A stretch of DNA of 64,000 bases from Flavobacteriaceae bacterium (GCA_018402385.1 JAGYJA010000004.1:186001-250000), one strand, 5' to 3'; positions 19,626 to 36,901 are shown, numbered from the stretch's first letter. Program-made: numbers and translations. The notes: generated by a model not told the origin, from the sequence alone.

Positions 19626-20033
19626 ATGGGCACTCAAGACAAAAAAATTATTCTCTTTGACGGTGTATGTAATCTCTGCAACGGTTCTGTAGTGTTGATC
19701 ATTAAAAGGGATAAAAAGGATTTGTTTCGGTTTGCTGCTATTCAATCTAATGAAGGCCAGGAGTTGATTGAAACTCATAATATTGACACATCAAAAGTGG
19801 ATTCCATTTTACTTATTGACGGTGAACACTACTATTCAAAATCAACAGCAGCTTTAAAGATAGCCCGTCACCTGGCCGGTGGTTATCCCCTGCTTTATGG
19901 TTTTATGATATTGCCCCGCTTTTTCAGGAATTGGGTCTATGATATCATTGCCCGAAACCGCTACAAATGGTTTGGTAAAAAAGAAAGCTGTATGATTCCC
20001 ACTCCTGAACTGCGCTCTAAGTTTTTAGAATAG
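19626..20033 (+). CDS. DCC-family (DUF393) thiol-disulfide oxidoreductase-like protein
   Basis: 135 residues. The family motif DGVCNLCNGSV (DxxCxxC) is at residues 12-22, the putative redox-active CxxC. The remainder has the family signatures FAAIQSNEGQ, SKSTAALKIARHL and the basic C-terminal ARNRYKWFGKKESC. It is predicted to be cytoplasmic; its reaction is not established. It starts 9 bp after mutS2 and is probably co-transcribed. A degenerate second copy lies at about 22100-22296, so this gene has been locally duplicated once. Confidence 0.85.
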   Translation: MGTQDKKIILFDGVCNLCNGSVVLIIKRDKKDLFRFAAIQSNEGQELIETHNIDTSKVDSILLIDGEHYYSKSTAALKIARHLAGGYPLLYGFMILPRFFRNWVYDIIARNRYKWFGKKESCMIPTPELRSKFLE

Positions 20034-21056: not shown

Positions 21057-21965
21057 TTAATTTACATATCCCCGAACGATAAGGTCATCGCCAGTTTGAA
21101 AATTATTTAAGTACCAGGTACCACCGGCTGCACTTGCTCCCCAATTTACTAATCTAAAAGTAACCGTTGTTGCAGATGTTAAATTCTGCAAAGCAGGGAT
21201 ACCACTTAAATCCATTGCAGGTTGTAGATTTCCAGCTGCCGAAGTGGTACCTCCCCAGGTTATTGGGCTACCAATATCAAAAAAATCCACTCCATTTATA
21301 CTGTATTGCCAAATCCCTGTTGTAGGTCCTGTTCCGGAGCGTCTGATATTGTATGGGTCTATATCGGTTATGGAAACATTTTCCCCAGAAGAAGGGGTTA
21401 TGGTAAATGTCGCAAATTTATTATTAGTGATAGCATTCGCCTTTGTCGTCACATTAAAACTATTTCCTCCCCAAGCACCTGTTGCTCCGGAACCACCTGT
21501 TCCAATACCAGCACCTCGGATTAATCCTCCAACTATAACAGAAGGACTTGTGGCAGTTGCTGCAAATGGACTTGGACCATAATTACCTGATCCCCCTGTT
21601 AACGGACTTACATTCCATCCTGCCAAAAGAGTATAAACAGGATCATTTACAGGCATGCAATACACATTTGACCAGGCAGATTCAATAGCGTCATAAATTT
21701 GCAAACAGCGGTTGGTACCTTCAGAGAGAAAAACCATCAAGCCGTCATCATTTGTGCCTACAGGTATATTATTGCGCTGTGTAAGGGATACTTTGGGCGG
21801 TAGAAATCCACCAAAATTGATTCCATCATTAGAACTGTTTACATCCAGTACCGCTGCCGGACTTGGGTTTGATGTATTTATCCCCACCTGACCCACGCCT
21901 TTGTAAGAAAATAAAAAACAGAAAATTAAAACACATAATCGCCAATAATCATGGGGATAATTCAT
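21057..21965 (-). CDS. secreted surface protein, paralogue B
   Basis: 302 residues with a Sec signal and the VGINTSNPSPAAVLDVNSS module (residues about 26-120, including FGGFLPPKVSLTQR and DDGLMVFLSEG). The C-terminal 180 residues hold Gly/Ser/Thr-rich beta structure with IRRSGTGPTTGIWQYSIN followed by GVDFFDIG, also found in 25609-26484. It ends without a T9SS signal. It lies 85 bp upstream of paralogue A on the same strand. Paralogues B and C are much closer to each other than to A. Function unknown. Confidence 0.75.
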   Translation of the reverse strand: MNYPHDYWRLCVLIFCFLFSYKGVGQVGINTSNPSPAAVLDVNSSNDGINFGGFLPPKVSLTQRNNIPVGTNDDGLMVFLSEGTNRCLQIYDAIESAWSNVYCMPVNDPVYTLLAGWNVSPLTGGSGNYGPSPFAATATSPSVIVGGLIRGAGIGTGGSGATGAWGGNSFNVTTKANAITNNKFATFTITPSSGENVSITDIDPYNIRRSGTGPTTGIWQYSINGVDFFDIGSPITWGGTTSAAGNLQPAMDLSGIPALQNLTSATTVTFRLVNWGASAAGGTWYLNNFQTGDDLIVRGYVN

Positions 21966-22099: not shown

Positions 22100-22296
22100 T
22101 GCGCGAAGTATATTATGGCACTAAAAGTTGCCATAAATTTGAAATGGGTTTACCTCCTGCTTGCGGTTTTTTGTTTCCTTCAGGCTTATTTAGAAATTGG
22201 GTATAGACCACCGGTGCCAAAAACCGTTACAAATGGTTTGGCAAAAAAGAAAACTGCATGATTCCCACACCGGAGTTGAAATCAAAGTTTTTGTAA
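22100..22296 (+). pseudogene. remnant of a second DCC-family (DUF393) gene
   Basis: Translation recovers the DCC C-terminus in pieces: ALKVAINLKWG from 22118 and, one frame over, FRNWV-stop-TTGAKNRYKWFGKKENCMIPTPELKSKFL from about 22189 to the TAA at 22294. It is clearly homologous to the end of the intact gene at 19626-20033. It carries a TAG at 22204-22206 and at least one frameshift, and the CxxC half is absent. It is a degenerate duplicate and should not be called as a gene. The rest of the 347-bp gap (21966-22312) holds nothing else I can see. Confidence 0.8.
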
Positions 22297-22312: not shown

Positions 22313-23494
22313 TTATTTGAGATTGTCCAGAATAAATTCCAACTTGGAATTGGTGTTTCTGTTTTCGGCGAAAGCATAATTTTCATAAGTATTTGCCGCA
22401 GCCAAACCTTCATTTTTCCACTTTTCAACAATGTGGTTGTACTCTAAAGTCACTTTTCCGCTTAAGAGATTATCAAGGGACTCCCTGTTTTTATAGTGGT
22501 TATAGATTTTTTTCAGTCCGGTGAGGTACATATAATCTTTTGTAAATCCGCCACCTCTGTGCGCTCTTAGCGAAATATTGTAAGCCTCTTCCCTATTGAG
22601 TTTATACTGATTGTGCAACAAGTCAAAAGTGTCACAAAAATCAAATCCTTTGCGCAAACTATCTGCTGCAAGTACACGATAAGAAAGCTCTTTTAAACGA
22701 TACAAAGTAAGGCAACCGCTCATATACTCACTAAAAACAGCAAGCCCTTCCTGGGTTTCTACATTTTGAGGGAAACCGTTATGAAAAATTTTAAGAGGTT
22801 GATTTAATCCGTTGAAGGTAGTAACCAAATGCACTCCAATCTCATGGTTTGCAAGCACTTTCAATTGATTGGCACTGTATAAATGGTTTTTCTTTAAAAT
22901 AAGTGTCTGGGTGTTGTTTTGCACCATAGCCGCAGCCGTGATTTTTGTCGAAACCTTGATGTTAAAAGGAAAATCATACACTTTCATAAAGTCTCTGAAA
23001 TAATCAATGGCATCATTCACATTATAAGCCGGCTGAAGTTCAGGGTCAAAAGCATCATCTGTAAAGTGCAAAATAAAACGGGCGTTTTCAACGTCTTTGT
23101 CTTTGGGTGTACCAAAAGATTTCAACGCATTGAAATAAAATTTTTGCGGCTGACTAATAGTCTCTATACATTGAATGAGTCCTGAGTAATCATAAATGAT
23201 ATCCCGGTAAAAAGCTCTGGATTCTGCGTCCTTAATCGTGTCGATTGGTTGTGAAAACAGTTCTTGTTGCATTTTGTGAGCATCAAAATCAATCCGGCGG
23301 TACTTGAATTTCGGATTGATGTTGTATTTGGATGCGAAGAAGTTGCGCTTTTCCTGCTCGATGTTTATTGGGTTGATGTAATTGAGCAATTCAATCTTTT
23401 GCACAAGCTGATTGAGGTGGTTGTCAATTTTGACCAGATTGGGATGTTCTTTTTTAACTTTTTCGGAAAGGGATGAGTTATTTTTTGTGTGCAT
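22313..23494 (-). CDS. DUF1704 / QEGLA-motif metallopeptidase-like protein
   Basis: 393 residues from ATG 23494 (an ATG at 23512 is also possible). The family motif HEIGVH (H217, E218, H222) is an H-E-x3-H zinc site, followed by QEGLA (248-252) whose Glu may be the third ligand. The family name 'flavohemoglobin expression-modulating QEGLA protein' (TIGR02421) reflects an old phenotype. DUF1704 also includes human MATCAP (KIAA0895L), a tubulin tyrosine carboxypeptidase, so a C-terminal peptidase activity is inferred. It starts inside the end of the N-formylglutamate amidohydrolase-like gene (17-bp overlap) and follows the ATP-grasp gene. The substrate is unknown. Confidence 0.85.
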   Translation of the reverse strand: MHTKNNSSLSEKVKKEHPNLVKIDNHLNQLVQKIELLNYINPINIEQEKRNFFASKYNINPKFKYRRIDFDAHKMQQELFSQPIDTIKDAESRAFYRDIIYDYSGLIQCIETISQPQKFYFNALKSFGTPKDKDVENARFILHFTDDAFDPELQPAYNVNDAIDYFRDFMKVYDFPFNIKVSTKITAAAMVQNNTQTLILKKNHLYSANQLKVLANHEIGVHLVTTFNGLNQPLKIFHNGFPQNVETQEGLAVFSEYMSGCLTLYRLKELSYRVLAADSLRKGFDFCDTFDLLHNQYKLNREEAYNISLRAHRGGGFTKDYMYLTGLKKIYNHYKNRESLDNLLSGKVTLEYNHIVEKWKNEGLAAANTYENYAFAENRNTNSKLEFILDNLK

Positions 23495-24308
23495 TGTAAA
23501 AGGAGTAAGCATGTGATTTGATTTTTTCTCTCAATTGAATTTCGATTGCAGAAACCACCTCAGGGAAGATGATTTGGGCATATTCATCACAATATATTTT
23601 TTTGAATTCTGTTGCCAAAACTAAGGTATTTTTAAAGTTTTTGGTAATATATTTTAGGAAATATCCATTGCCTTGAAAGGTGTCATTGATTTTGGAGGTG
23701 GCGATGATACCGTGTGGTAATTCCAATTCTGCTAAAGAGGTCCTCCAAGATTCTACCTGATTTCCAAAGCGCTTATTATCAATATTGGCTGTTCCCAAGT
23801 TGATGACAGGCACTTCCCTGTCCCATCGTCGCCAATTGTAGGAATGCATATCATAGACGATTACAGCACCAAATTTTGCTTCCAATTTTGATATTAAAGC
23901 GCTTACAACCTTATAAAAGTTAAGATGTTTTTGAAGGCTTTGTTGTTTTTGATTGTCGGGCAAGGGGGTTTTCCATAGTTTTTTACCCCAGGCATCTTCA
24001 TAGATGGCATTTTCAGGGTCGCGATTGAGGTCATATTCAAATCGGCTGTCACAACCGGCAATGACTATGGGATGGGATTTGACAAATTCTTTGGTACAAG
24101 GGTCTTCTTCAAACCATCGGTCATATTGTGTATGCAGGCAGTTGTCCCAAAGTTCTTTCCTGAACTGATGCCCGTCGTGTACAGCACCACAGATATAAGG
24201 AACATATTCATCTATCTTTATGGTAAAAGAATAATCGTCAACAACAGCTTCAAATTGAAGCTCATTTTCAATATTTTTTAGTATCTGTTTTATGGAAAGT
24301 CGTTTCAT
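23478..24308 (-). CDS. N-formylglutamate amidohydrolase-family hydrolase
   Basis: 276 residues, PF05013-like. The metal-binding motifs AVHDGHQFR (residues about 41-49) and DMHSYNWRR (about 155-163) are present, with a C-terminal ATEFKKIYCDE. Classical members remove a formyl group from formylglutamate in histidine degradation, but no other hut gene is here. The Bacteroidota branch, as in this case, sits with an ATP-grasp and a DUF1704 gene, so a deacylase or amidase of a modified peptide is as likely. It begins 137 bp after the ATP-grasp gene and overlaps the DUF1704 gene start. Confidence 0.82.
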   Translation of the reverse strand: MKRLSIKQILKNIENELQFEAVVDDYSFTIKIDEYVPYICGAVHDGHQFRKELWDNCLHTQYDRWFEEDPCTKEFVKSHPIVIAGCDSRFEYDLNRDPENAIYEDAWGKKLWKTPLPDNQKQQSLQKHLNFYKVVSALISKLEAKFGAVIVYDMHSYNWRRWDREVPVINLGTANIDNKRFGNQVESWRTSLAELELPHGIIATSKINDTFQGNGYFLKYITKNFKNTLVLATEFKKIYCDEYAQIIFPEVVSAIEIQLREKIKSHAYSFYNAHKK

Positions 24309-24445
24309 GAATTGTATTTCAAATCTTGAAATTAGAAATTTGTTATTTGTTGATGGAATGATTTATAAGAATTTTTTTAGAAAAAACGTAAAACACCCAG
24401 CATCCAAGGAGCAATACTCACTGACTCAATGACTCAAAAACTCAT

Positions 24446-25474
24446 TTACGCTTCATCAACGTGTTTACGCAGTTTTTTTCTTCGTTCAAAGGCATTGACC
24501 ATCTCTAACACTTTATCTTCTACAAAGTCGATGACCTTTTCCTGAACTTTTGTTTTATACACTGTATTCATATAAGTAATACCCCCGGGTGACATGACAT
24601 TGACTTCAACCAGCATCCCGTTAATGATATCAATACCCACAAAATAGAGTCCGTCTTTTACCAGTTTCGGGCCAATGCGTCTGCAAAGCTCTTTTTCCTG
24701 TTTTGTCAAGCTGTGTTTTTCAACACGTCCTCCAGCACTCACGTTAGAACGGTGATCCTCTTCACCGGGTACACGTCGCATAGCGCCTATGGGTTTTCCA
24801 TTAAGAATCAAAACCCTCACATCCCCCTGGTCTGCACCTTCAATATACTCCTGAAGGATGACATAATTTGAAGTGCCATCGGCATTGTCGATATAAAAGT
24901 CAAGCAACGAATTAATACTTTTCATAGCTCGTTTTTCCAAAAGGATTACTCCTGAACCACCAAAACCATTCAAAGGTTTCAAAATCATTTTATCGGGTCC
25001 GTCTTTAATGACACTTTTTAAGTATTCTTTATTTTTAGTCACATGCGTACGCGGAATGATTTCATTGTTTTCATCCTCAAAAACAGCAGTATAGAGCTTG
25101 TTGTTTGCACGGCGTATCCCATCGAGGTCATTCATAATGAAAACATCATCTTTCACTGAATCCAAAAAGTTGAGCATAATCATATCCAACGGCGGGTTGC
25201 TCCTCAGGATAATCACATCAAAACCGGCAAGTGGAAGCATTTCATCATAAAACTCTGCTTTAGTGTGAAAAGATTTTAAATTGTTGGAAATTTTATCTTT
25301 TCGTTTCATCACTCTTGAGAAGGCAAATGCAACGCTGTCTCTAATCGTAAGATTGGCTGGTGTGGTGATGGCCAGTCCGTGACCGCGCTTTACAAACTCG
25401 TGAATCATGGCCAACGTGGAGTCATTCTCAGGTGATATCTCGTGCCAAGGGTACATTATAAAGCAAACATTCAT
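24446..25474 (-). CDS. ATP-grasp ligase, glutathione synthetase (GshB)-like
   Basis: 342 residues from ATG 25474 (an ATG eight codons earlier is less likely). N-terminal GshB-like domain: MNVCFIMYPWHEISPENDST and DVIILRSNPPLDMIMLNFLDS. The ATP-grasp part has DKMILKPLNGFGGSGVILL (ATP loop and Lys), QEYIEGADQGDVRVLILNGKPIGAMRRVP, and VGIDIINGMLVEVNVMSPGG (metal site). It would form an amide bond at ATP cost. It may be true glutathione synthase, but no GshA is near and the window encodes BshA of bacillithiol synthesis. Its constant partners here are the NFGA-like and DUF1704 genes, so a different ligation is possible. Confidence 0.82.
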   Translation of the reverse strand: MNVCFIMYPWHEISPENDSTLAMIHEFVKRGHGLAITTPANLTIRDSVAFAFSRVMKRKDKISNNLKSFHTKAEFYDEMLPLAGFDVIILRSNPPLDMIMLNFLDSVKDDVFIMNDLDGIRRANNKLYTAVFEDENNEIIPRTHVTKNKEYLKSVIKDGPDKMILKPLNGFGGSGVILLEKRAMKSINSLLDFYIDNADGTSNYVILQEYIEGADQGDVRVLILNGKPIGAMRRVPGEEDHRSNVSAGGRVEKHSLTKQEKELCRRIGPKLVKDGLYFVGIDIINGMLVEVNVMSPGGITYMNTVYKTKVQEKVIDFVEDKVLEMVNAFERRKKLRKHVDEA

Positions 25475-25608
25475 AAGGTGATGGTTTGAAGAAAGCAAAT
25501 CACTTTCAAGTTGTTAAATAATCGAATTTTAAAACTAAACAATTTTAACAACTAACAAAATAAAAAAGTAGAAAATTAAATCCCGGAATCAAATAGTAAA
25601 TCATATAA

Positions 25609-26484
25609 CTATCGCAAGTTTCCTTTCACTATCAAATCATTGCCGTTAATGTTGTTGATGTACCAGGTCCCTCCGGCTCCTGTGGCACCCCAATTGACAA
25701 TCCTTAAAGTTACAGTTGTTGTTGAAGTCAAATTTTGAAGGGCTGCGATACCGCTTAAATCAATGGCTGATTGATCGTTTCCTGGAGCAGTTGTAACTGG
25801 GCCCCAAATGATGGGTGTCCCGATATCAAAAAAATCGGTTCCATTGATACTGTATTGCCAAATTCCTGTTGTAGGACCTGTTCCTGAACGTCTTATGTTG
25901 TATGGCTCTATAGTTGTTAAAGAAACATTGACTCCAAAATTAGGAGTGATGGTAAAAGTTACAAATCTGTTATTAGTGACTGAAAGAGCCTGAGTTTGTG
26001 TTGGAAAACCGACTACAAACCATCCGTCAGCTCCCCAAGAATCATTTGATCCCCCGCCTGATGTTGTTAAGCCTCCTCCACGGGTTAATCCCCCAATCGT
26101 TACACTTGGGCTTGTTGTTGCAGCATCAAAAGGACTAGGTCCAAAAGCAGGGACACCCAAAACCTCCCAAGCCGCCAAAACAGCTGAAAACTCAATGTTC
26201 TGAGGAAAAAGAGTTTGCCAGGCACTCCCATCCCATATCTGAAGTTGACTGTTGGGTGGGTTGATTACATACACCAGCATGCCTTCATCTGCAGTGGTTA
26301 CAGGAATAGCATCCCGTTCAGTTGGAGTTACCCGTGGTGGCATAAAGCCGCCAAAATCTGTTCCGTTTGAGCTGCTATTCACTTCTAGCACTGCGGCCGG
26401 ACTAGGATTCGTAGTGTTTATTCCCACTTGGGCGACACTACTATAAGTAAACAACAAGCAACTTATTAGTACAAAAAATTTCAT
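25609..26484 (-). CDS. secreted surface protein, paralogue C
   Basis: 291 residues with a Sec signal (SSVAQVGINTTN) and the same N-terminal module as paralogues A and B (PSPAAVLEVNSS, FGGFMPPRVTPTER, DEGMLVYV, QIWDGSAWQ). Its C-terminal 190 residues closely match paralogue B: IRRSGTGPTTGIWQYSIN, then GTDFFDIGTPI, and a final GGTWYINNINGNDLIVKG. No T9SS signal. It lies upstream of the ATP-grasp gene on the same strand, separated by 110 bp. The duplicates therefore bracket the three-gene ATP-grasp unit. Function unknown. Confidence 0.75.
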   Translation of the reverse strand: MKFFVLISCLLFTYSSVAQVGINTTNPSPAAVLEVNSSSNGTDFGGFMPPRVTPTERDAIPVTTADEGMLVYVINPPNSQLQIWDGSAWQTLFPQNIEFSAVLAAWEVLGVPAFGPSPFDAATTSPSVTIGGLTRGGGLTTSGGGSNDSWGADGWFVVGFPTQTQALSVTNNRFVTFTITPNFGVNVSLTTIEPYNIRRSGTGPTTGIWQYSINGTDFFDIGTPIIWGPVTTAPGNDQSAIDLSGIAALQNLTSTTTVTLRIVNWGATGAGGTWYINNINGNDLIVKGNLR

Positions 26485-27668: not shown

Positions 27669-29114
27669 TTATTCTTTAATTTCAAAAGTTTCTGAGGGAC
27701 TCTCAACATCTCGATAATTTAACATCCCTTCCCCGTCTGCTATAATTGATGAAACTGTGGCATCTCCGGTAACATTCACCACGGTTCTAAACATATCCAA
27801 TATCCTGTCAACAGGAAAAATAATCGCGATCCACGCAGGGTTTAAGCCCACAGAATCCAGTACAATGATTAACATAACTAAACCGGCACTTGGAACTGCT
27901 GCAGATCCTATGGATGCCAAGGTTGCCGTCATAACCACTATCAATTGCTGGCCAATCGTCAAATCTATCATATGCATTTGTGCCAAAAAGACAACAGCAA
28001 TCGCTTGATAAAGACTGGTTCCATCCATATTAACAGTAGCCCCAATAGGAAGTACAAAACTGGATATTTTTTTATCAACACCCAGGTTGTTCTCCACACA
28101 CTCCATAGTTACCGGTAAAGTTGCGGCACTGCTTGAAGTGGAAAAAGCCAGAGTTTGAGCAGGCCCCATTCCTTTGAAAAAGCCTTTGTAAGGAATTTTT
28201 TTGACAAATATCTTGAGTACCAAAGGATAGATAACAAAAATCATCAGTAAAAGCCCCCCAAGAACAGTCAATGAATACCAACTCAAGCCTTTAAAAATTT
28301 CAATTACTTTTCCAATATCGTCTCCTGCCATTTTACTTACTACTCCTGCTAACAATGCAAAAACAAAAAACGGTGCGGCTTGCATGACCAAATCAACCAT
28401 TTTGAGGAACACCTCCAAGGTACCATCCACAAAGGATAAAACCGGCTTTGACTTGTCTGAAGGTATAAACAAGAGACAGACCCCAAAAAAGATGGCAAAA
28501 AAGATAATTTGAAGCATCAAGCCATTGTTTGATAAAGAGTAAAAGAAATTATCAGGAACAATATCAATCAAAGGTTGAAGCGGAGTGGTTTCTTTTCTTT
28601 TGTCTGCTGTTTCAAGCTTGTCTGAAACGGAAGCTTCTTTAAGTTCACTTTTCGTTAATTCGGATATTTCTTGTGCCCGTTCAAAAAAATCAGGATCTTG
28701 TAAATAGTTAATCCCGTCTTTTATTTCATAACCTTGTTCAGATGCCCATATTTCATAACTTATTCTATTATCGATGCGGCTTTGTTCGTCAATTAATTTT
28801 CCCGGTTTTATGACATTTACAAGTACAAGTCCGATACCAATCGCAAAAACAGTTGTCATTAAATAAATTAAAAGGGTCTTCCCTCCCATTCTTCCCAGGC
28901 TTTTAGGGTCTCCAATATTGGCTACACCACTTATGATGGAAAACAACACTAGTGGAACTGCAATTAATTTTAATAAATTGATAAAAATCGTTCCAAAGGG
29001 GTCAATCCAATTGATGGTAAAGGCACTCCAGCCCATGGTACTTGACAACAGCGCCCAAATGATTCCGAGAACCATCCCTATGATTATTTTCCAATGTAGT
29101 GCAAGTTTTTTCAT
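27669..29114 (-). CDS. dicarboxylate/amino acid:cation symporter (DAACS, GltP-like)
   Basis: 481 residues, an inner-membrane Na+ or H+ coupled importer of dicarboxylic amino acids or C4-dicarboxylates. The family signatures are the serine-rich STSSSAATLPVT re-entrant loop near residue 330 and NMDGTSLYQAIAVVFLAQ near 364 (the NMDGT cation site), then GSAAVPSAG. About eight membrane helices are visible. An insertion of about 75 charged residues (about 115-190) after the third helix is longer than in GltP. It is monocistronic and convergent with the DUF4476 gene; the closest upstream gene is aroC. Confidence 0.9.
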   Translation of the reverse strand: MKKLALHWKIIIGMVLGIIWALLSSTMGWSAFTINWIDPFGTIFINLLKLIAVPLVLFSIISGVANIGDPKSLGRMGGKTLLIYLMTTVFAIGIGLVLVNVIKPGKLIDEQSRIDNRISYEIWASEQGYEIKDGINYLQDPDFFERAQEISELTKSELKEASVSDKLETADKRKETTPLQPLIDIVPDNFFYSLSNNGLMLQIIFFAIFFGVCLLFIPSDKSKPVLSFVDGTLEVFLKMVDLVMQAAPFFVFALLAGVVSKMAGDDIGKVIEIFKGLSWYSLTVLGGLLLMIFVIYPLVLKIFVKKIPYKGFFKGMGPAQTLAFSTSSSAATLPVTMECVENNLGVDKKISSFVLPIGATVNMDGTSLYQAIAVVFLAQMHMIDLTIGQQLIVVMTATLASIGSAAVPSAGLVMLIIVLDSVGLNPAWIAIIFPVDRILDMFRTVVNVTGDATVSSIIADGEGMLNYRDVESPSETFEIKE

Positions 29115-35759: not shown

Positions 35760-36901
35760 TATAGTTTTATTTTTAATTTTTCAACGGATTGAAGGTACAA
35801 CTTTTCATAAACAGGTACAATTTTATGAATATCAAATCTTGCAGCTGTCTTCTTAGCTTCAATTTTAAAGATGTTTAGTGTCGTCTTATCTTTTAAAATC
35901 TTCAGTGTATTTTTAGTCATCTCCTGTACATCTCCCACATCACTTAAAAAACCACTTATACCGTGCTCGTTAACTTCCGGCAAACCGCCAGTATTTGTAG
36001 ATATTACAGGAACACCACAAGCCATTGCTTCTAGTGCAGCTAGTCCGAAGCTCTCTTTTTCTGATGGGAGTAAAAAGATATCTGTAAAACAGAGGATTTC
36101 TATCACTTCATCACTATTGCCCAGAAATATTACTTTATTTTCGATATTTAATTTTTGGCAGAGCTCCTCTGCAATTTCTTTTTCAGGTCCCTCACCCACC
36201 ATTATCAGTTTTGCAGGAATTGATTTTTGTACCTCATAAAACACCTTCACCACATCATCGATACGTTTTACTTTCCTGAAATTACTCACGTGTGTGAGAA
36301 TATACTCGTGCTCTTCGGCCATCACATGTCGCTGGCAATCATTTGATTTTGTATTGTTGTGTTTGTCCAAATCTATAAAATTTGGAACGACCTCAATAGG
36401 TACTTTTGTGTCAAACAATCGCAAGGTATCGTCTTTTAAACTTTGAGAAACCGATGTTACCACATCACTTTTATTGATACTAAATGTCACTGCCGGCTTA
36501 TAAAAGGGGTGATTGCCCACCAAAGTGATATCTGTGCCATGGAGTGTAGTTACCATGGGAATTTTAATCCCTTCTTCTTCCAGCATTTTTTTAGCCATAT
36601 ACCCTGCATACGCATGTGGAATAGCATAATGCACATGCAACACTTCAATGGAATGCAGTTTCACGACATCCACTAGTTTACTGGAAAGCGCTAACTCATA
36701 AGGCTGGTATTTAAATAGAGGATACTCCGGTATATTTACTTCGTGAAAATGAATATGATTTGCTAACAGTTCGAGTCGCACCGGTTGCTTATAAGTAATA
36801 AAATGTATTTCGTGACCTCTTTTTGCCAGTTCAGTTCCTAGCTCGGTAGCGACGACACCACTACCTCCAAAAGTTGGGTAACATACTATGGCAATTTTCA
36901 T
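35759..36901 (-). CDS. bshA: N-acetyl-alpha-D-glucosaminyl L-malate synthase
   Basis: 380 residues, GT4 glycosyltransferase, first enzyme of bacillithiol synthesis (UDP-GlcNAc plus L-malate). BshA signatures: IVCYPTFGGSGVVATELGTELAKRGHEIHF at the start, LHVHYAIPHAYAGYMAK near 100, TLHGTDITLVGNHPFYKP near 123, the nucleotide-binding SNFRKVKRIDDVV near 212 and the ESFGLAALEAMACGVPVI motif near 287. Length is standard. bshB and bshC are not in the window. The predicted low-molecular-weight thiol is therefore bacillithiol, which bears on the reading of the GshB-like gene. Confidence 0.92.
   Translation of the reverse strand: MKIAIVCYPTFGGSGVVATELGTELAKRGHEIHFITYKQPVRLELLANHIHFHEVNIPEYPLFKYQPYELALSSKLVDVVKLHSIEVLHVHYAIPHAYAGYMAKKMLEEEGIKIPMVTTLHGTDITLVGNHPFYKPAVTFSINKSDVVTSVSQSLKDDTLRLFDTKVPIEVVPNFIDLDKHNNTKSNDCQRHVMAEEHEYILTHVSNFRKVKRIDDVVKVFYEVQKSIPAKLIMVGEGPEKEIAEELCQKLNIENKVIFLGNSDEVIEILCFTDIFLLPSEKESFGLAALEAMACGVPVISTNTGGLPEVNEHGISGFLSDVGDVQEMTKNTLKILKDKTTLNIFKIEAKKTAARFDIHKIVPVYEKLYLQSVEKLKIKL

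Follow-up and report, generated by a model that had tools for sequence, protein, structure and literature searches.

The window, by which we mean the entire 64,000-nucleotide stretch of Flavobacteriaceae DNA that was analysed, contains three neighbouring genes on its minus strand that encode a GshB-like ATP-grasp ligase, a metal hydrolase resembling N-formylglutamate amidohydrolase (FGase) and a protein of the MATCAP (DUF1704) family (Table 1). The first-pass annotation had described these genes, an overlap between the last two and the motifs HEIGVH and QEGLA in the DUF1704 protein; the coordinates and Pfam matches obtained here agree with that description, and both motifs were located. The ATP-grasp gene lies upstream of the FGase gene at a spacing of 137 nt and starts with the ATG at 25474, an alternative upstream TTG being present at 25498 in the ORF listing. 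The FGase and MATCAP genes share 35 nt if the longest MATCAP start is used and fewer with the next in-frame ATG. A simple Kyte-Doolittle scan of the ligase, FGase and MATCAP revealed no hydrophobic run of the kind expected for a signal or membrane segment, so all three proteins are probably cytoplasmic.

Table 1. Positions of the cassette genes, their motifs and a common neighbour, counted from the first nucleotide of the window.
Feature	Position	Strand	Basis or remark
GshB-like ATP-grasp carboxylate-amine ligase, 342 aa	24446-25474	minus	PF02951+PF02955, NF009110; predicted cytoplasmic
FGase, N-formylglutamate amidohydrolase-like metal hydrolase, 276 aa	23478-24308	minus	PF05013 and model
FGase motif HDGH, likely metal site	24168-24179	minus	conservation in 12 homologues
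FGase motif DMHSYN, likely metal/active site	23835-23852	minus	all but M invariant among 12 homologues
MATCAP/DUF1704 (PF08014) metallocarboxypeptidase-fold protein, 399 aa	22313-23512	minus	PF08014 and model
MATCAP metal motif HEIGVH, residues 223-228	22829-22846	minus	conservation and register with human MATCAP
MATCAP third-ligand motif QEGLA, residues 254-258	22739-22753	minus	conservation and alignment with human EEG
Dicarboxylate/glutamate-type symporter (DAACS by sequence)	27669-29114	minus	common neighbour, not a core part

The cassette is flanked by two secreted-looking genes (21057-21965 and 25609-26484) that are duplicates of each other, two stretches of 131 nt (73% DNA identity) and 178 nt (79%) being alignable, and for which no Pfam match was found. 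Just behind the MATCAP gene, at 22184-22292, 109 nt (19918-20026) from the 3′ end of a small DCC-type gene (19626-20033) recur at 77% identity, and two surface-type genes lie between the two copies. This looks like an insertion with partial duplication, because in relatives a small gene of similar size to the DCC-type gene is often found directly beyond MATCAP. A phage or defence origin of the cassette was considered and rejected, as neither PADLOC nor PHROG gave a match.

MATCAPs became known in 2022-2023 as enzymes that trim tubulin tails. The window protein matches the PF08014 'MATCAP' profile at 321.5 bits against a cut-off of 27, over profile positions 2-363 of 365, and misses the TIGR02421 QEGLA equivalog cut-off (302.7 vs 338.65 bits). 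The H, E, G and H of HEIGVH and the Q, E and G of QEGLA are invariant in 11 homologues, and the latter motif aligns with the human EEG motif. A profile of the bacterial family searched against the PDB found human MATCAP with an E value of 3.4e-17, HEIGvH and (E/Q)EG being in register. The modelled structure (pLDDT 92.4) superposes on human MATCAP 7z5g with a Z score of 26.3 and 2.8 Å over 293 residues; the next families are DUF885 at Z 16.5 and the M32 carboxypeptidases near 12, the latter coming directly after human MATCAP among enzymes of known activity in the structure search. The relationship to MATCAP that had been proposed for the DUF1704 protein is borne out by this structural comparison, in which the motif is in register in both alignment and superposition, and sequence and model together indicate that the protein is a true MATCAP homologue with a conserved metal motif. 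In humans, the MATCAP/TMCP enzymes take Tyr and Glu off C-termini and trim polyglutamate chains, for which the glutamate of their HExxxH motif is essential (PMC10499314). We infer that the window protein is a metal-dependent carboxypeptidase.

Enzymes of the FGase and AstE/ASPA families cleave the amide bond of N-acyl acidic amino acids. The window FGase exceeds the PF05013 cut-off (50.1 vs 28.9 bits) and falls far short of the score required for the HutG equivalog (21.5 against 278.75 bits). In 12 homologues, H44 and G46 of HDGH are invariant and H47 nearly so, and D153, H155, S156, Y157 and N158 of DMHSYN are all invariant. Comparison of its sequence with the PDB gave no match, and the fold was therefore modelled (pLDDT 93.5), yielding a Z score of 24.4 to N-formylglutamate amidohydrolase 2q7s and scores of 10-12 to M14 carboxypeptidases, succinylglutamate desuccinylase (AstE), poly-gamma-glutamate hydrolase and CCP5, those for the M14 enzymes and AstE being about 11. 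A fold shared with these enzymes, as modelled here, is no proof of function.

The ligase consists of GSH-S_N and GSH-S_ATP domains (PF02951, 86.9 bits; PF02955, 182.5 bits). It passes NF009110 (448 bits vs a cut-off of 408) and NF003573, which carry the names 'glutathione synthetase/synthase', and misses the cut-offs of TIGR01380 glut_syn (236.2 vs 299.05 bits) and of the RimK family (105.4 vs 143.4 bits). The PF03133 (TTL) profile has no match in it at E<=0.01, and one relative of the type C described below shows a weak sub-threshold match. Among the residues invariant across 14 relatives, spanning types A-C, are those that line up with the E. coli GshB catalytic positions, the GshB residues that bind ATP and metal being taken from knowledge of the family. 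In ATP-grasps of the GshB, RimK and TTL type, an acyl-phosphate is formed and an amine is linked to a carboxyl end. Glutathione synthesis by the window ligase appears unlikely, because the genome (92.5% complete) has no match anywhere to the glutamate-cysteine ligase (gshA) profiles PF04107 and PF04262, both of which matched their positive controls, and because bshA (35789-36901 in the window) and bshC (elsewhere in the genome) are present. PF08886 likewise had no match in the genome, but its positive control had none either. That reading was rejected on these grounds. A gshA elsewhere in the genome had been named beforehand as a finding that would tell against the first-pass reading, which came through this check for the two families PF04107 and PF04262. 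The first-pass view that the ATP-grasp is unlikely to serve only glutathione is upheld to the extent that it is no ordinary glutathione synthetase.

Co-occurrence of DUF1704 with an ATP-grasp and PF05013 had been set beforehand as a test of the grouping, and the grouping held across 247 evenly sampled Bacteroidota genomes, 15 of which have MATCAP and 17 the GSH-S_N domain: the ligase lies within 6 kb of MATCAP in 14 of the 15 MATCAP genomes, and an FGase lies within about 2 kb in 13. The fourteenth ligase genome (G111) has an AstE/ASPA-like gene in place of the FGase. The shared presence of ligase and MATCAP in the 247 genomes corresponds to a hypergeometric P of 4e-19, a value that ignores shared ancestry and so overstates the significance. 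MATCAP was also found in 22 of the 60 nearest relatives, and the same partners occur in the neighbourhoods of 25 loci. A scan of named genomes provided 80 Flavobacteriaceae loci, which are the best 80 matches and therefore give no measure of breadth; all three genes are on one strand in 71 of them, and the ATP-grasp and FGase genes overlap or almost touch in about half of these 71. Among the same best 80 loci, the symporter is present in 64, usually beside aroC, and the cassette itself contains a rhodanese sulfurtransferase in 19 and a small gene, TerB-like by eye and without a Pfam match, in 17. Such optional genes are exemplified by the rhodanese at L030:5933-6763 and by the 111-aa TerB-like protein at L034:9857-10192. 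The module is found in Alphaproteobacteria and Photobacterium as well, the same trio being present in Aminobacter, on pSymB of S. meliloti and, by annotation, in Shinella. Inter-protein distance correlations of the trio, with AroC controlled, are modest (0.26-0.42) and carry no weight as evidence. These surveys support the view that the three genes are a real, widely conserved functional unit whose grouping goes beyond local chance.

The unit takes several forms. In type A, to which the window belongs, the ligase, FGase and MATCAP are separate genes. In type B, FGase and MATCAP form one protein; there are five such fusions in all, four of them with an adjoining ligase (L035, L044, L061 and the Photobacterium plasmid, L146) and one, on a Vibrio plasmid, without a ligase nearby. 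In type C, MATCAP carries an additional N-terminal domain of 230 aa and is followed by a more distant GshB-like ligase, the hydrolase partner being either a separate FGase (as in Aminobacter, S. meliloti pSymB and, by annotation, Shinella) or an AstE/ASPA-like gene. Profile comparison identifies the additional domain as a degenerate FGase (hhalign 96.9%, E 1.5e-10) that lacks the HDGH and DxHSYN motifs; it is fused to the long MATCAPs of L037, L042, L048, L055, L056, L058, L060 and L148 and, judging from the loss of the metal motifs, is a dead copy. The link between FGase and MATCAP thus persists through neighbouring genes, fusions and fusions to a dead domain, and the range of arrangements makes simple inheritance a poor explanation for the linkage between ligase and MATCAP. 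At the aroC-symporter site, eight of the best 80 named loci (L090, L107, L125, L129, L132, L137, L138 and L144) retain MATCAP alone, its motif intact, the ligase and FGase having gone from the neighbourhood. Together with the Vibrio fusion, these loci suggest that the hydrolase can work independently of the ligase. A further lone MATCAP (L038:7907-9058) has a broken motif (HEIGVN, QAGLA) and neither ligase nor FGase beside it, and its genome also contains a type C cassette.

Other loci were noted in passing. The standalone MATCAP at L052:7431-8705 (HEAYVH; PF08014, 361 bits) probably represents a separate subfamily, and no GSH-S_N ligase was found in its genome. Similarity to human MATCAP, which is not to be read as a tree, decreases from type A (E 3e-6) through type C (0.39) to a standalone MATCAP from another genome, which gave no match. 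At L053 and L054, two different GshB-like ligases, of types A and C, lie on either side of one FGase and one MATCAP. An apparent 956-aa ATP-grasp fusion in G286 (L059) was discarded as a high-GC frame artefact, the locus consisting of FGase, MATCAP and ATP-grasp.

We propose that the three genes constitute an operon-like module which makes and trims an amide-linked amino-acid modification, a reading to which we would give an even chance of being correct. The ATP-grasp would use ATP to activate a carboxyl end, be it on a protein tail, a peptide or a small metabolite, and ligate an amino acid there, in the manner of GshB, RimK and TTL; MATCAP, acting as a metal-dependent carboxypeptidase, would take C-terminal residues off the product; and FGase, or the AstE/ASPA-like enzyme of other genomes, would cleave the amide between an acyl group and an attached acidic amino acid. 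The residue added is most likely glutamate or aspartate. This is a guess from family knowledge, made because both hydrolase families and the human MATCAPs act on amides of acidic residues, and the exchange of FGase for an AstE/ASPA-like hydrolase in some loci of the same module, together with the deglutamylase activity of human MATCAP, points to the same two residues. A symporter beside the cassette agrees with an acidic residue and may equally reflect plain synteny with aroC. The rhodanese or small extra gene present in a fraction of the type A loci lies outside the make-and-trim model and counts against it, as do the lone MATCAPs with intact motif and the Vibrio fusion that has no ligase next to it.

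The first-pass annotation had gone further and suggested a cycle in which an amino acid is added to and removed from the C-terminus of a protein or peptide. The conserved association of a ligase with carboxypeptidase-fold hydrolases upholds this in part, but the candidate target, ribosomal protein S6, chosen by analogy with RimK, was rejected: in the 17 relatives with a readable S6 the tails are basic, and no acidic tail is tied to the cassette. In its most ambitious form the proposal would be a bacterial tail code, in which the ligase puts Glu (or Asp) on a cellular protein, at its C-terminus or on a side chain, while MATCAP trims the chain and FGase takes off the residue at the attachment point, eukaryotic MATCAP being descended from such a module. 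We regard this version as speculative and rather improbable.

The most serious alternative to the make-and-trim module is one-way biosynthesis of a small peptide metabolite or cofactor, in which the ATP-grasp would build the compound and both hydrolases would strip protecting or leader residues from it. From family knowledge, GshB-type ATP-grasps mostly make small peptides; the neighbourhoods examined contain no gene for a precursor peptide or a constant protein target; and the paired ligases of L053 and L054 resemble stepwise assembly. However, the cluster lacks a constant gene for transport, a carrier or tailoring, and the known substrates of the MATCAP family are protein tails (PMC10499314). 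We consider such a pathway unlikely, with perhaps one chance in a few of being correct.

We give little probability to a role in breaking down peptides or N-acyl amino acids, in which the ligase would be secondary. Hydrolases make up two of the three enzymes, FGase shares its family with an enzyme of histidine degradation, and the dicarboxylate/glutamate-type symporter often adjoins; yet in nearly all MATCAP genomes of the Bacteroidota sample (14 of 15) the hydrolases are accompanied by an ATP-using ligase, and we recognised no hut gene adjacent to the cassette. It is more doubtful still that the module serves low-molecular-weight thiol metabolism, the ligase making a glutathione-like thiol and the hydrolases degrading its conjugates. 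The NF009110 name, glutathione synthetase, and the rhodanese of 19 of the best 80 named loci would fit this role, but the rhodanese is optional, the genome has bshA and bshC and no gshA recognisable by PF04107 or PF04262, and 18 of the 22 MATCAP-bearing relatives have no PF04107 match. Finally, that the genes are neighbours merely through shared ancestry of the chromosome region, with no common function, is scarcely credible and nearly refuted. The stability of the region around aroC and the symporter in Flavobacteriaceae and the tracking of AroC by MATCAP distances (Spearman 0.65) would fit it, but the trio also occurs in other phyla, where gene order and surroundings differ and gene fusions are found.

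The conserved linkage places the MATCAP family in bacteria alongside fixed partners, one of them an ATP-using ligase, and the ancestral function of MATCAP thereby becomes testable in culturable species. If its target is a protein, the proposed module would be a second bacterial system for adding and removing amino acids, beside RimABK. We found no bacterial gene set or bacterial role for the MATCAP family in the literature searched, although this neighbourhood may already have been described, notably in the 2009 survey of ATP-grasp amidoligases by Iyer and colleagues. We would also argue that the labels 'glutathione synthetase' and 'flavohemoglobin expression-modulating' are misleading for these genes.

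Among known single enzymes, HutG resembles the window FGase in PF05013 membership and in fold, but the window protein is far below the HutG equivalog cut-off and is not seen with histidine-degradation genes. GshB has the same two Pfam domains as the window ligase, which scores about 140 bits against the E. coli enzyme and keeps its catalytic residues. In contrast to GshB, the window ligase is encoded beside two hydrolases in a genome without a PF04107/PF04262 gshA, and it has SPGG near the C-terminus where E. coli GshB has SPTC. The eukaryotic tubulin-tail cycle of TTL/TTLL ligases, CCP deglutamylases and MATCAP/TMCP enzymes also combines an ATP-grasp superfamily ligase, a hydrolase of M14-like fold and a MATCAP homologue; of these three fold types, homology has been demonstrated for MATCAP only. 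The bacterial ligase is GshB-like and unmatched by PF03133 (TTL) at E<=0.01, FGase has just a fold in common with CCP5 (Z 10.2), and the bacterial module comes without tubulin or a known tail substrate. In the RimABK system of Pseudomonas, RimK adds glutamates to ribosomal protein S6 and the protease RimB removes them, and RimB-RimK hybrids exist (PMC11957791). RimB is a retropepsin-like aspartic protease, whereas the window cluster consists of ATP-grasp, FGase and MATCAP; the window ligase scores too low for the RimK family, and S6 tails do not track the cassette. RimABK is nevertheless the nearest working bacterial analogue of the proposed module, as a system in which an ATP-grasp adds amino acids, a protease removes them and the two occur as ligase/protease hybrids.
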